Source: Prosthecobacter sp. SYSU 5D2 (GTDB lineage: Bacteria; Verrucomicrobiota; Verrucomicrobiia; Verrucomicrobiales; Verrucomicrobiaceae). Taken from it: a DNA stretch of 64,000 nt. The notes under the pieces are model-generated. The model saw only the letters and a program-made list of their open reading frames with translations. It had not been told where the DNA came from and did no database searches. The stretch's first letter is position 1, and every line of letters begins with the position of its first letter. The position numbers were made by a program, and so were the translations under genes. Location: contig NZ_JBBYXL010000001.1 of assembly GCF_039655865.1 (NCBI RefSeq), positions 1 through 64,000 on the forward strand, written 5' to 3'. Shown here piece after piece: positions 60,198 through 62,924 of the stretch.

Positions 60198-60815
60198 TCA
60201 GCCCAGGAGGCCGCGCCGTTTAAAGTCAAAGAGGTTGATTTTTTGAGACTTCTCAATCATCTCCACCGTGAATTTCAGCAGGCAGATCTCCCACGTGTCA
60301 TCCACGCCTGCGATGACCGCCCGCATCGGGTTTCCGCTGATGCGGATGTCCTCCAGCAGCTTCCCGCACACGGCCTCCATGGGCTCATGCACCAGGTCCT
60401 CGGTCATGTCATCCATCTTGAATTTGAAGCCGTACTTCAGGATGGCCAGGCGGTGCAGGTTTTCCTTCAGGAAATCGCCAAAGGCCTCGCCCTGCGGGCC
60501 GAAGCCGTCAAAGTCAAAATCCGCCACCGAGGCGGGGTCCGGGCGCAGGATCAGCGGCTTCTCCGCCGTCAGCTTGCCCTGGCGGATGCGCGTCGTGTTC
60601 ACGCTGTCCATGAGTTCGGAGACCAGTTGAAACTCAAACTGGGTGGAACCAAAGGTGTCAATCCGCCGGTCCGGCTCATGAAGAACCTGGGTGTTCTCCA
60701 GGGCGTATTGGATGTCGTACTCCGTGTGCATTGGGGGTCGGCCAGCATAGAGCACATTGCGTTCAGGGCGAATGATTTCTGAGCCCATCCGATGGAAGGA
60801 CGGCGTTTTAAGCAT
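60198..60815 (-). CDS. Conserved-looking hypothetical protein
   Basis: 205 residues, acidic, mixed alpha/beta, no signal peptide or membrane segment. Blocks such as FGSTQFEFQLVSELMDSVN, FDGFGPQGEAFGDFL and RISGNPMRAVIAGVDDTWEICLLKF look conserved, but I do not recognise the family. A good ribosome-binding sequence (AGAGGAG) stands ten bases before the ATG at 60815. It is the first gene of a run with the LysM protein and accA, all in one direction with 18-base gaps. Confidence 0.7.
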   Translation of the reverse strand: MLKTPSFHRMGSEIIRPERNVLYAGRPPMHTEYDIQYALENTQVLHEPDRRIDTFGSTQFEFQLVSELMDSVNTTRIRQGKLTAEKPLILRPDPASVADFDFDGFGPQGEAFGDFLKENLHRLAILKYGFKFKMDDMTEDLVHEPMEAVCGKLLEDIRISGNPMRAVIAGVDDTWEICLLKFTVEMIEKSQKINLFDFKRRGLLG

Positions 60816-60833
60816 GCACGGCCCGCTCCTCTC

Positions 60834-60900
60834 AGCATTGATAAAATCAGGCCGGAGGGCCCGATGACCGCCAGCATTGCACAAGCATTGCTCAAGCATT
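60834..60900. repeat. Iteron-like AGCATT repeats
   Basis: The hexamer AGCATT, mostly within (C/A)AGCATTG, occurs at 60834, 60873, 60884 and 60895. The last three are spaced exactly 11 bp, one helical turn, so a protein could bind all three on the same face. They lie upstream of an excisionase-like HTH gene, a possible binder. Function inferred. Confidence 0.45.
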
Positions 60901-60960
60901 TTTGACCAAACCAGCCGCCAAGCCGGGGACCAACGCCACCGCCAACCGGCCCGCCAACAT

Positions 60961-61020
60961 AAGGAGAAAGGCTTGGAAGAGAAAGACCTGAAGGAGAAAG
61001 GCATAAAAGAGAAAGACATA
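60961..61020. repeat. 30-bp direct tandem duplication
   Basis: Two adjacent 30-bp units (60961-60990 and 60991-61020) differ at only four or five positions; each contains two 15-bp half-repeats of GGAGAAAGGC/GAAGAGAAAGAC type. The strand is almost free of pyrimidines. It is probably a slippage product or binding array rather than coding DNA. Confidence 0.6.
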
Positions 61021-61196
61021 ACTACCTTTCCCCGCTGCCAAGGCAGCAGGGAGGGGGGAAAGGCAGCACCGGGCAGGTAAGAAAAAAGGAGGGTGGCAAC
61101 ACAACCCGATGGACCGAATCCAGGCCTCGACTTCCCGGACTTTACTGAAAATAACCGTTTGCTTTTTCGTGAGTTGATTCGCCCGGTAAGGGTCGG

Positions 61197-61484
61197 ATGA
61201 AATCTCAACCGATACCCAAAACGGGCGCCGAAGCAGCCCGGACCACCGCCGCCGCTGCTGACAGCCGCCAGCCACCGCCACAGGCGGAATGGATGCGGGT
61301 GAAGGAGGCCTGCGCCTTCTCCTGCCTTTCCAAACCCAAGCTCTACGAGCTGATGAACCAGGGCCACATCAAATCCGTGGCGCTGCGTGAGCGCGGCCAG
61401 AGCAAAGGCACGCGCCTGGTCAGCATCGGCAGCCTCCGGGCTTTTCTGGAAAGCCGCGCCTCCGGCGGAAATGGCCAGGCCTAA
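61197..61484 (+). CDS. Excisionase/MerR-type helix-turn-helix DNA-binding protein
   Basis: 95 residues with a winged helix of the excisionase (HTH_17) type at about 30-90: WMRVKEACAFSCLSKPKLYELMNQGHIKSVALRERG and then RLVSIGSLRAFLESRA. Such proteins control integration or transcription in phages and integrative elements. It heads a three-gene plus-strand cluster with an HNH-like protein and an unknown protein. No integrase gene is in the window, so element mobility is not shown. Confidence 0.8.
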   Translation: MKSQPIPKTGAEAARTTAAAADSRQPPPQAEWMRVKEACAFSCLSKPKLYELMNQGHIKSVALRERGQSKGTRLVSIGSLRAFLESRASGGNGQA

Positions 61485-61580
61485 ACGCAACACCACCCGC
61501 CTCCGTTTTGCCCCAGGCCCCGCGCGAGAAGGCTGCGCGTGAAGACCCAAAAGCGGCGGTGGCAGCACCCGAAACCTACC

Positions 61581-62000
61581 ATGCACCTGCTCAAAGAATG
61601 CTCACGATGCGGCGTCATCAAGCCGCTGGACCAGTTTTCTCGCGACCGCAGTGCCCGCTACGGAAGACATCACCGCTGCACGGCCTGCGACCGGCAGCGT
61701 GCCCGCGAACGCCAGCAGGACGGCTCCAAGGCCAGGTCCGTGATCCGCTGGAGAAACCGCCACCCGCAGGCCGTCGCCGCCCACAACGCCGTGTATCGGG
61801 CGGTGCTGCGCGGAGAGCTGCGGCGCCAGCCCTGCCGGGTCTGCGGCTGCACCCGCTCCCATGGCCACCACGAGGACTACGGCAGGCCGCTGGACGTCCT
61901 CTGGCTCTGCCAGGCCCACCATGCCGAGCACCACCGCCTGCAGCGCCTGTATGGCCGCGGGCAGTTCCTGTTTGATTTCTGCCAGGAGGGCCGGCCATGA
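61581..62000 (+). CDS. HNH/zinc-finger nuclease-like protein
   Basis: 139 residues. The N-terminus has a CxxC...CxxC zinc site (ECSRCGVIKPLDQFSRD and RCTACDRQR), and the C-terminus an HNH-like zinc module (CRVCGCTRSHGHHEDYGRPLD and WLCQAHHAEHHR). This matches small HNH endonucleases found in phages and mobile elements. The ATG at 61581 is preferred to an upstream GTG. The stop overlaps the next start (ATGA), indicating translational coupling. Confidence 0.75.
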   Translation: MHLLKECSRCGVIKPLDQFSRDRSARYGRHHRCTACDRQRARERQQDGSKARSVIRWRNRHPQAVAAHNAVYRAVLRGELRRQPCRVCGCTRSHGHHEDYGRPLDVLWLCQAHHAEHHRLQRLYGRGQFLFDFCQEGRP

Positions 62001-62899
62001 GCGCATCCGACACCTATTTCAAGACACCCCTGTCCATCCTCAGAAGCGGAGGCTCGGCGCTGGAGGCTCTCTGTAACGCCCTTTGTTGCGGAACCGTCAA
62101 TGCCGGCATCGGCTTCCGGAAACTGAATGGTGAGGAGGCCTTCGCCTGCCTGCTTGAAGAGACCGCCAACGAGGCCAAAGAGCCGGAGAGCCCTCCGGCA
62201 GATTTCACGCTCACGGATGCATGCAATGAGGCCATGTCCAGGGAGGACTCCACCGCCCTCTGGCAGGCCGCCCTGGTGGGGGCTGGTATCTGCAACCTCA
62301 AAGGAGCCACCCCAGAGTACATAGCGCAGTGCTGGGCCAAGCATGGCCAGGAAACAGGCGTCTTTTTCACGATCAAAGGCCACTGGTTATGGAATGCGCT
62401 CCATTCTGAACGGAAGAAAACCGGGTGGAAGGTGGACGCCGGCCGCAAGCCGCTCTCCTGGCGTGAGTTCCGTATCCTGGCCGCCATCCTTTCCGTCCAG
62501 ACCAATCAGGCCGGTTTTGCCTTCATCGGCTGGGAGACCATCCAAGCCCGGGCCTGCGGCTACCACAGGAAGGACCTTTTGGCAGCCTCGTGGTTTGACC
62601 TGCCCCCCCACTGCCAGCCCTTGAGCCGTGCCCAGATCCGCACCGCCTGCCAGAACCTGGAGGCCCTGGGCTTCTTCGCCCGCGTCCGCTATTCCACCGG
62701 CCCGCGTGGCGGTTACTTGGCCTACAGCTTCCGCCACCCGCGCCCGGCGCTCATCGAAGCCGTGAAACTCTGGAAGCAGCAAAACAACGCCTTCGCCCTC
62801 AAAGCCGCCACCCACCGCGCCGAAGACCTGGCCGCCTTCCGCGCGGCCAAAGGCGCGCCAAGCTCCAGCCAAGGCTGCCCCAAGCATGCGCCAACATAA
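61997..62899 (+). CDS. Unrecognised protein of the accessory cluster
   Basis: 300 residues, no signal or membrane segment. Blocks of note are LSWREFRILAAILSVQTNQAG and RAQIRTACQNLEALGFFARVR, which read like a winged-helix module, and a basic C-terminus. The layout (winged-helix-like plus accessory cluster) is compatible with a replication or element-maintenance protein, but no family is recognised. It is coupled to the HNH-like gene by a four-base overlap. Confidence 0.6.
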   Translation: MSASDTYFKTPLSILRSGGSALEALCNALCCGTVNAGIGFRKLNGEEAFACLLEETANEAKEPESPPADFTLTDACNEAMSREDSTALWQAALVGAGICNLKGATPEYIAQCWAKHGQETGVFFTIKGHWLWNALHSERKKTGWKVDAGRKPLSWREFRILAAILSVQTNQAGFAFIGWETIQARACGYHRKDLLAASWFDLPPHCQPLSRAQIRTACQNLEALGFFARVRYSTGPRGGYLAYSFRHPRPALIEAVKLWKQQNNAFALKAATHRAEDLAAFRAAKGAPSSSQGCPKHAPT

Positions 62900-62924
62900 G
62901 GGGCATGGCCTGATGAAGCGGCCG

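Follow-up and report, generated by a model that had tools for sequence, protein, structure and literature searches.

The cluster of three genes at positions 61197-62899 of the window, the whole 64,000-nucleotide stretch of Prosthecobacter sp. SYSU 5D2 DNA analysed here, is probably a remnant replication operon from a small, satellite-like integrative element of the Verrucomicrobiales. An earlier note on this DNA had taken the region for an integrated element in remnant or core form, with no integrase visible. This proved largely right, as relatives of the third protein, P300, adjoin integrases in other genomes, some of them inside tRNA-derived direct repeats, and the integrase-bearing genome G133 shares the P300 clade of the window (support 96/97). 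By analogy, the element is probably akin to phage satellites and may share their life style. The features on which we rely are the following.

60834..60900, plus strand: AGCATT direct repeats, part of an iteron-like array, with copies at 60834, 60873, 60884 and 60895
60906..60953, plus strand: four 12-bp CCAA-initial units, iteron-like, starting at 60906, 60918, 60930 and 60942
60954..60970, plus strand: core CCAACATAAGGAGAAAG, a 17-mer characterised by genome counts
60961..61019, plus strand: A-rich ~15-bp repeats (GAGAAAG...), candidate unwinding region, from Tandem Repeats Finder (TRF) and A+T content
61022..61066, plus strand: inverted repeat from a repeat search, arms 61022-61039 and 61049-61066, 83% complementary
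61197..61484, plus strand: HTH_17 protein of the excisionase-like class, 95 aa, from a Pfam HTH_17 match
61539..62000, plus strand: HNH / endonuclease VII-like protein, 153 aa from GTG, from PHROG matches and Cys/His residues
61997..62899, plus strand: P300, 300 aa, candidate iteron-binding replication initiator
62858..62901, plus strand: degenerate second array in the 3' end of P300, three 11-bp CCAAG units followed by CCAACATAAGG

The genes are much as the earlier note described them. The helix-turn-helix gene matches Pfam HTH_17 at E 1e-6, just over the family cut-off. The HNH-like gene, for which an alternative start is possible at ATG 61581, matches PHROG endonuclease families at E 1.3e-22 and 1.3e-10; the Pfam scan gave no HNH match for its product, and the Cys/His residues are retained in two relatives in the alignment. 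Its overlap with the P300 gene by ATGA is found at 61997-62000. The winged-helix call for P300 survives in a weaker form. The window protein belongs to no Pfam and no NCBIfam family, and its PDB profile matches are weak and include winged-helix proteins and also unrelated ones; from these a winged-helix domain near residues 150-247 is probable. Among 19 P300 members, three weak Pfam families appeared at E <= 0.1 with one member each, and a PHROG replication initiation protein was matched by one member (E 0.083). An AlphaFold model built with three sequences had a mean pLDDT of 41 and could not be used. P300 probably binds DNA.

Two further observations concern the surroundings of the cluster. 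A 462-aa mechanical open reading frame on the minus strand (60198-61586 of the window) runs antisense across the array and the HTH gene and encloses a conserved 177-aa gene on the left flank (60201-60731); the rest of this frame is probably spurious. About 1.1 kb behind the three-gene cluster, to the right of the window, lies an AbiEii/AbiEi toxin-antitoxin pair (G000:C1:64008-65527, or L051 4008-5527), with Pfam E values of 1e-45 and 8e-11 and PADLOC E values of 7e-108 and 4e-71. The pair is possibly cargo of the same island and is followed by what appears by eye to be a run of sulfatase-like genes.

The repeats ahead of the operon form an ordered, origin-like signal. The 11-bp-phased AGCATT motifs of the earlier note stand exactly 11 bp apart at 60873, 60884 and 60895; no other site in the 64-kb window has any hexamer three times at one exact spacing of 7-14 bp, and 20 dinucleotide shuffles of the window produced no hexamer triple at 11 bp. 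The CCAA units at 60906-60953 extend this array and could be aligned with 13 other sites. Behind the core, the 30-bp tandem duplication reported earlier was recovered by TRF at 60961-61017 (period 30, 1.9 copies), with a second call at 60964-61019 (period 15, 3.7 copies). The A+T content is ~59% after the core vs 35% in the 60 bases before it, and the 100 bases from 61004 have a predicted folding better than shuffles (z -3.3). The CCAACATAAGG core lies at 60954 and once more at 62891 in the end of P300, where the stop codon of the gene is the TAA of the second copy; no clear A-rich repeats lie behind the degenerate second array. In this layout the good array copy is 5' of the operon and the degenerate copy is at the P300 3' end. 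The operon is flanked by exact 13-bp direct repeats, CGCCAACATAAGG, at 60952 and 62889; no exact direct repeat between 60741-61050 and 62801-68000 is longer.

P300 is sparsely distributed. With a five-sequence profile, 20 of 386 genomes from the order gave a match, the window's own included, spread over 8 of 50 genera, and a single-query search of 55 relatives gave a full-length P300 in one genus mate (G002, 51%) and weak matches in G012 and G015. We read the P300 loci of 19 genomes, all those matching except G005, where the match covers 30 residues. The G063 gene has an internal stop, the G323 gene was matched over the first 168 positions alone, and those of G145, G379, G029 and G229 were matched over part of their length; some P300 genes thus look damaged or diverged. 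Searches of genome-contig and viral-contig collections yielded no P300 relatives, nor did plasmid and phage collections queried with the P300 relative from RYN_635 in place of the window protein.

Where P300 does occur, it often has an integrase upstream. By homology to chosen queries, a same-strand integrase is upstream of P300 in 9 of the 19 loci and a similar HTH gene is present in 10. Together with integrases in G033 and G003 this makes 11, of which 10 were scanned (L171 was left out); all 10 match Pfam Phage_integrase at E 7e-6 or better, and 9 pass the cut-off, with G015 just below it. Exact repeat pairs of 29-56 bp were found at 5 of the 11 integrase loci, and the distal copies overlap tRNA genes for Thr (G015), Arg (G033), Pro (G346), Thr (G058) and Leu (G145). 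At the other six loci, several of which have little flank, no repeat pair was found. The repeat-bounded elements are 5.7-9.2 kb long. Those of G015, G346, G058 and G145 hold P300, one of them as a partial match only, and that of G033 has HTH and HNH genes with a BT4734-like protein at the place expected for P300. The same order of HTH, HNH and BT4734-like protein (by Pfam in G033, by similarity in G003) is found in G003, and in both genomes HNH overlaps the next gene by ATGA. The HTH-HNH pair therefore has two kinds of downstream protein.

Further genes were noted in these elements and near P300. The G346 element carries two small-terminase (terS) genes (Pfam E 1.2e-7 and 3.4e-7; PHROG E 2.1e-16 and 9.6e-17), a TerS-like protein adjoins P300 in G012 (PHROG E 2.9e-8), and in G015 P300 is followed by genes for a HigB-like toxin and an HTH_3 protein. 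In G012 we also noted, close to P300 and its array, a large DEAD helicase with an MrfA Zn-binding domain (L059 3085-8412), whose best PADLOC match is DruE (E 2.7e-93), and a large protein of similar size adjoins the G133 array (L160 2122-7221). Six proteins near integrases or P300 gave no Pfam match (L060 6896-8056 and 10566-11165, L061 9483-10175, L062 11387-12142, L160 9474-10118 and L163 6540-7619) and are candidates for element-specific genes. The defined element ends bear on the possibility that the arrays serve the element as att or integrase-binding sites, as the two CGCCAACATAAGG copies flanking the window operon could suggest. In G346 and G058, however, the att repeats are the pairs that overlap tRNA genes, and they enclose both P300 and its array; arrays also follow P300 at loci where no integrase was found (L159, L164-L166). 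We consider this account very improbable.

Arrays are a recurrent feature of the P300 3' end. At many loci, inspection by eye revealed an array of phased direct repeats on the 3' side of P300, followed in turn by a CAACAT-like core and A-rich repeats; the phased repeats often precede a CAACATAAGGAGAAAG-like core and A-rich repeats of ~15 bp, and in G012 and G184 the layout is on the opposite strand (by eye). A periodicity script set a 410-base stretch at the 3' end of P300 against the remainder of each locus. A periodicity of 11-13 bp gave a Fisher p of 2e-8 over 19 loci and of 9e-7 over the 16 loci left when the window, G002 and RYN_635 were removed, and one of 14-16 bp gave 1.5e-6 and 3.8e-6, respectively; a control region gave p 0.91 over 16 loci. 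These values are descriptive, since region and spacings were picked after viewing the sequences. The individual 0.05 level for 11-13 bp was reached by 12 of the 19 loci and missed by the window, L060, L162, L164, L167, L169 and L172; the 14-bp signal of L165 comes from a different repeat further on. With a weight matrix, the best match fell immediately 3' of P300 at only 3 of 16 loci. Averaged over 14 sites, A+T content is 41% in the loci, 37% on the array side and 60% past the core, and the sequence after the core is predicted to fold better against shuffles than elsewhere (mean z -1.52, n=14, vs -0.11, n=60; p 0.0018), with z above 0 at 3 of the 14. An exact DnaA box was found within 400 bp of none of the 14 sites and a one-mismatch box at two. 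At L159 and L164-L166 the array follows P300 in the absence of any HTH match as well as any integrase match, and for this reason the HTH protein is not favoured over P300 as the presumed reader of the repeats. A very regular run of 11-bp TGCGG repeats lies between P300 and the CCAA units in G002 (L058 5330-5461).

Genome-wide scans tie the signal to genomes with P300. The exact 17-mer CCAACATAAGGAGAAAG has three copies in its own genome and none with one or two mismatches; allowing up to one mismatch, there are three each in G002 and G056 and none in the remaining 36 of the 39 genus genomes. The exact 17-mer also occurs in 35 genome-contig stretches, 6 of them from Verrucomicrobia, and in 16 viral-contig stretches, where by our own arithmetic ~30 chance matches are expected in 257 Gb; tblastn with five cluster proteins found no match in the 29 non-Verrucomicrobia and 16 viral stretches. 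A model built on 14 sites (R1), from G133 and G346 among others, was run on 68 whole genomes of the family and reached E <= 0.01 in 11: three matches each in G000 (the window's genome), G056, G002 and G176 (RYN_635), two each in G062 and G151, and one each in G133, G184, G077, G136 and G033. Sites from G062, G151, G184 and G077 had not entered the model, and all four have a match at the P300 3' end (G151 1.7e-6, G062 5.8e-4, G184 7.2e-4, in the A-rich part of the model only, and G077 1.2e-3). The other P300 genomes scanned, G005, G012, G015, G025, G029, G058, G063 and G145, gave no R1 match. The matches in G136 and G033, where no P300 is known, have marginal E values of 0.009-0.010, that of G033 lies inside an 806-codon open frame, and we took both as chance. 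A second model (R2; 18 sites, 30 genomes) reached E <= 0.01 in 7 of 16 P300 genomes, in none of 13 genomes without P300 and not in G005, which was counted apart; for 5 of the 13, the lack of P300 is judged from the P300 matches listed. It is mainly a specificity check, as six of the seven had contributed sites; in the seventh, G323 (E 0.004), the match is off the P300 contig. The sole R2 match of G012 (E 0.026) is directly beside P300, and a control genome, G060, had a match at E 0.030. That repeats, lone arrays and the three genes are unrelated neighbours is extremely improbable. The good array of the window does lie 5' of the operon, not in the usual place, and the marginal matches in G136 and G033 would also suit such a reading, but the non-contributing genomes with an R1 match at E <= 1e-3 (G062, G151 and G184) all have P300, and the matches are at its 3' end.

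Some array copies stand alone. Five P300 genomes have them, two each in G000, G002 and RYN_635 and one each in G062 and G151; the three R1 matches of G056 were left out of this count. Around the lone arrays, where some contigs are short, there was no P300 relative (E <= 1) and no relative of the integrase, HTH, HNH or BT4734-like proteins (E <= 0.01). The RYN_635 copy L087 has ~111 bp of array and 115 bp past the core in common with the P300 copy and lacks the remainder of P300, so it is not obviously a decayed P300 gene. The lone arrays of G062 and G151, two species (L195 6628-6720 and L196 6389-6481), share one syntenic gap beside a response-regulator-like gene, with flanks 81-87% identical and the gap 72% identical over 231 bp. 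No empty site could be defined for the two lone arrays of the window's own genome: in five relatives their flanking sequences either match at separate places or match on a single side. Lone sites carry their own differing short repeats, such as the AAGACG units of L090.

The lone arrays bear on two other roles for P300. As a transcription regulator it would bind the arrays as operators, in cis and at several chromosomal genes, and several lone arrays are indeed intergenic (by eye) and P300 is probably DNA-binding. However, the main array in relatives is 3' of P300 and not at its promoter, the ordered succession of array, core and A-rich repeats is unusual for operators, and the genes beside lone arrays have no evident common theme (by eye). 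This role is rather unlikely. A role in partition, with P300 coating the short direct repeats of a TubC-like centromere and lone arrays as extra centromeres, appears decidedly unlikely. TubR is a winged-helix centromere-binding protein that acts on short direct repeats (TubC); a PDB profile search listed it for P300 at E 0.82, and the small number of lone-array sites would be in keeping with a segregation signal. Yet the TubR match is not significant and was gone from the list with a larger alignment, neither TubZ nor any other ParA/TubZ-type NTPase was among the element proteins scanned (a subset of the open reading frames), and A-rich repeats behind the core would be unexpected.

The earlier note had proposed comparing related genomes for presence and absence, and in this comparison the cluster is not universal at its locus. 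The left-flank gene is present in 37 of 39 genomes of the genus, 30 of which, the window's own included, gave loci. In none of the 29 relatives' loci compared does DNA similarity to the window go beyond 60781; these loci extend up to 1.5 kb past the left-flank gene, and less in L018, L006 (~1.1 kb), L023 (0.7 kb) and L020 (0.14 kb). In G034 the next gene, by eye, is one we take to be thymidine-phosphorylase-like. Relatives of four integrases were found neither in the window nor in the 16 kb to its right, no tRNA gene was found in the window or L051, and no long flanking (att) repeat surrounds the cluster besides the 13-bp core copy. No terS gene turned up when the three cluster proteins were compared with PHROGs and flank proteins with Pfam.

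In the P300 tree, the window protein groups with those of G002, RYN_635 and G133, and this clade is nested in a set that adds G346 and G323 (100/96). The placement fits integrase loss in the window lineage, but good support is lacking for half of the 16 inner branches, and integrase presence is not clearly clustered on the tree. In the genus of G077, G062 and G151 (L164, L165 and L166) the P300 locus is syntenic, no integrase match was found there, and the dN/dS of P300 is about 0.2. Between G077 and G151 the dS of P300 is 1.55, far above the 0.27 of a neighbouring gene, which suggests that the allele was replaced in place.

We propose the following mechanism. The HTH_17 protein would act like AlpA/Xis, and the HNH-like nuclease would be translated just ahead of P300, presumably coupled to it through the ATGA overlap. 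P300, as initiator, would bind the 11-12-bp CCAA/AGCATT repeats and open the A-rich 15-bp repeats behind the CCAACATAAGG core, whereupon the excised element would replicate. The window copy would have lost, or never had, an integrase and att sites. This reading draws on the same-strand integrases and similar HTH genes beside P300, the tRNA-bounded relatives, the ATGA overlap repeated in G033 and G003, the phased repeats and R1 matches at the P300 3' end, the rise in A+T after the core and the two small-terminase genes of G346. Against it count the failure of P300 to match any known initiator family, the 7 of 19 loci short of the 0.05 level, the poor showing of the weight matrix, the lack of exact DnaA boxes near the 14 sites, the single repeat set, the suspected harm of chromosomal origins in SGI1 and the failure to find an att site for the window copy.

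The order of P300, repeats, core and A-rich repeats resembles the iteron-origin layout beside an initiator gene in SGI1 and in phage-inducible islands (PICIs). In the passages of PMC6092414 drawn on here, PICIs of Gram-negative bacteria are small integrated elements with an integrase, a small regulator, accessory cargo and sometimes terS, and their origin lies directly 3' of the initiator gene, where two iteron sets flank an AT-rich stretch. Relatives of the window cluster resemble them in carrying iteron-like repeats and A-rich DNA directly downstream of a candidate initiator gene. One repeat set and an A-rich stretch 3' of P300 are found in many of them, degenerate in the window, and the small regulator of the AlpA/MerR type is present in the window as the HTH_17 protein. 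In contrast to the PICIs of that source, P300 is not recognised as Pri-Rep and one repeat set takes the place of two flanking ones. The cluster most likely works like a PICI replication module; we do not file it as a PICI since integrase, att and terS were sought in the window copy and none was found.

Other satellites compare similarly. The core of the Vibrionaceae PICMI, as given in the sections of PMC10803314 used here, comprises int, AlpA (modelled by PF12728, to which the window HTH also belongs) and a replication gene, and the gene beside int often overlaps it, mostly by ATGA. Unlike in that account, the ATGA overlap here is that of HNH with the downstream replication gene, the place of the DUF3987/DUF5906 primase is taken by P300 or a BT4734-like protein, and integration is at tRNA sites instead of beside fis. 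SGI1, in the portions of PMC7826253 cited, is an integrated island whose S004-repA/oriV pairs a plasmid-like initiator with downstream direct repeats by an AT-rich stretch, as proposed here; its IncN2/N3-related RepA, four 16-bp repeats, DnaA boxes and helper conjugative plasmid are its own. In the PLE of Vibrio cholerae, according to the part of PMC8263062 consulted, a satellite initiator RepA and its iteron origin likewise co-vary as a module, with a RepA_N domain and three ~30-bp semi-palindromic iterons peculiar to it. SGI1, PICI and PLE thus have a layout of this kind, but P300 matched none of the family models searched.

The authors of the SGI1 work suspect that severe harm results when RepA is active while its origin sits in the chromosome (PMC7826253, in the section cited), and by the same token lone origins must be silent or repressed if P300 is active. 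Tentatively, and on balance doubtfully, the lone arrays may be functional, with integrase-less P300 replicons keeping dispersed origin copies in the host chromosome, either as targets of Campbell-type integration or as decoys by which related replicons are regulated or kept out. The window would fit integration origin by origin, given its two flanking CGCCAACATAAGG copies, and a circle closed at CGCCAACATAAGG would have the canonical order of P300, repeats, core and A-rich repeats.

In the open-access literature searched we found no paper on Verrucomicrobial satellites with an integrase and a small terminase, nor one linking SatelliteFinder with Verrucomicrobia or Prosthecobacter with iterons; a prior description is possible. 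P300 is apparently an unnamed candidate initiator family with a recognisable origin-like signal, whose core CCAACATAAGGAGAAAG is usable as a search tag. Lone origin-like copies in a host chromosome, in one case positionally conserved, would be unusual. The candidate family is carried by small Verrucomicrobiales elements integrated at tRNA genes, and terS genes are present in at least one such element.
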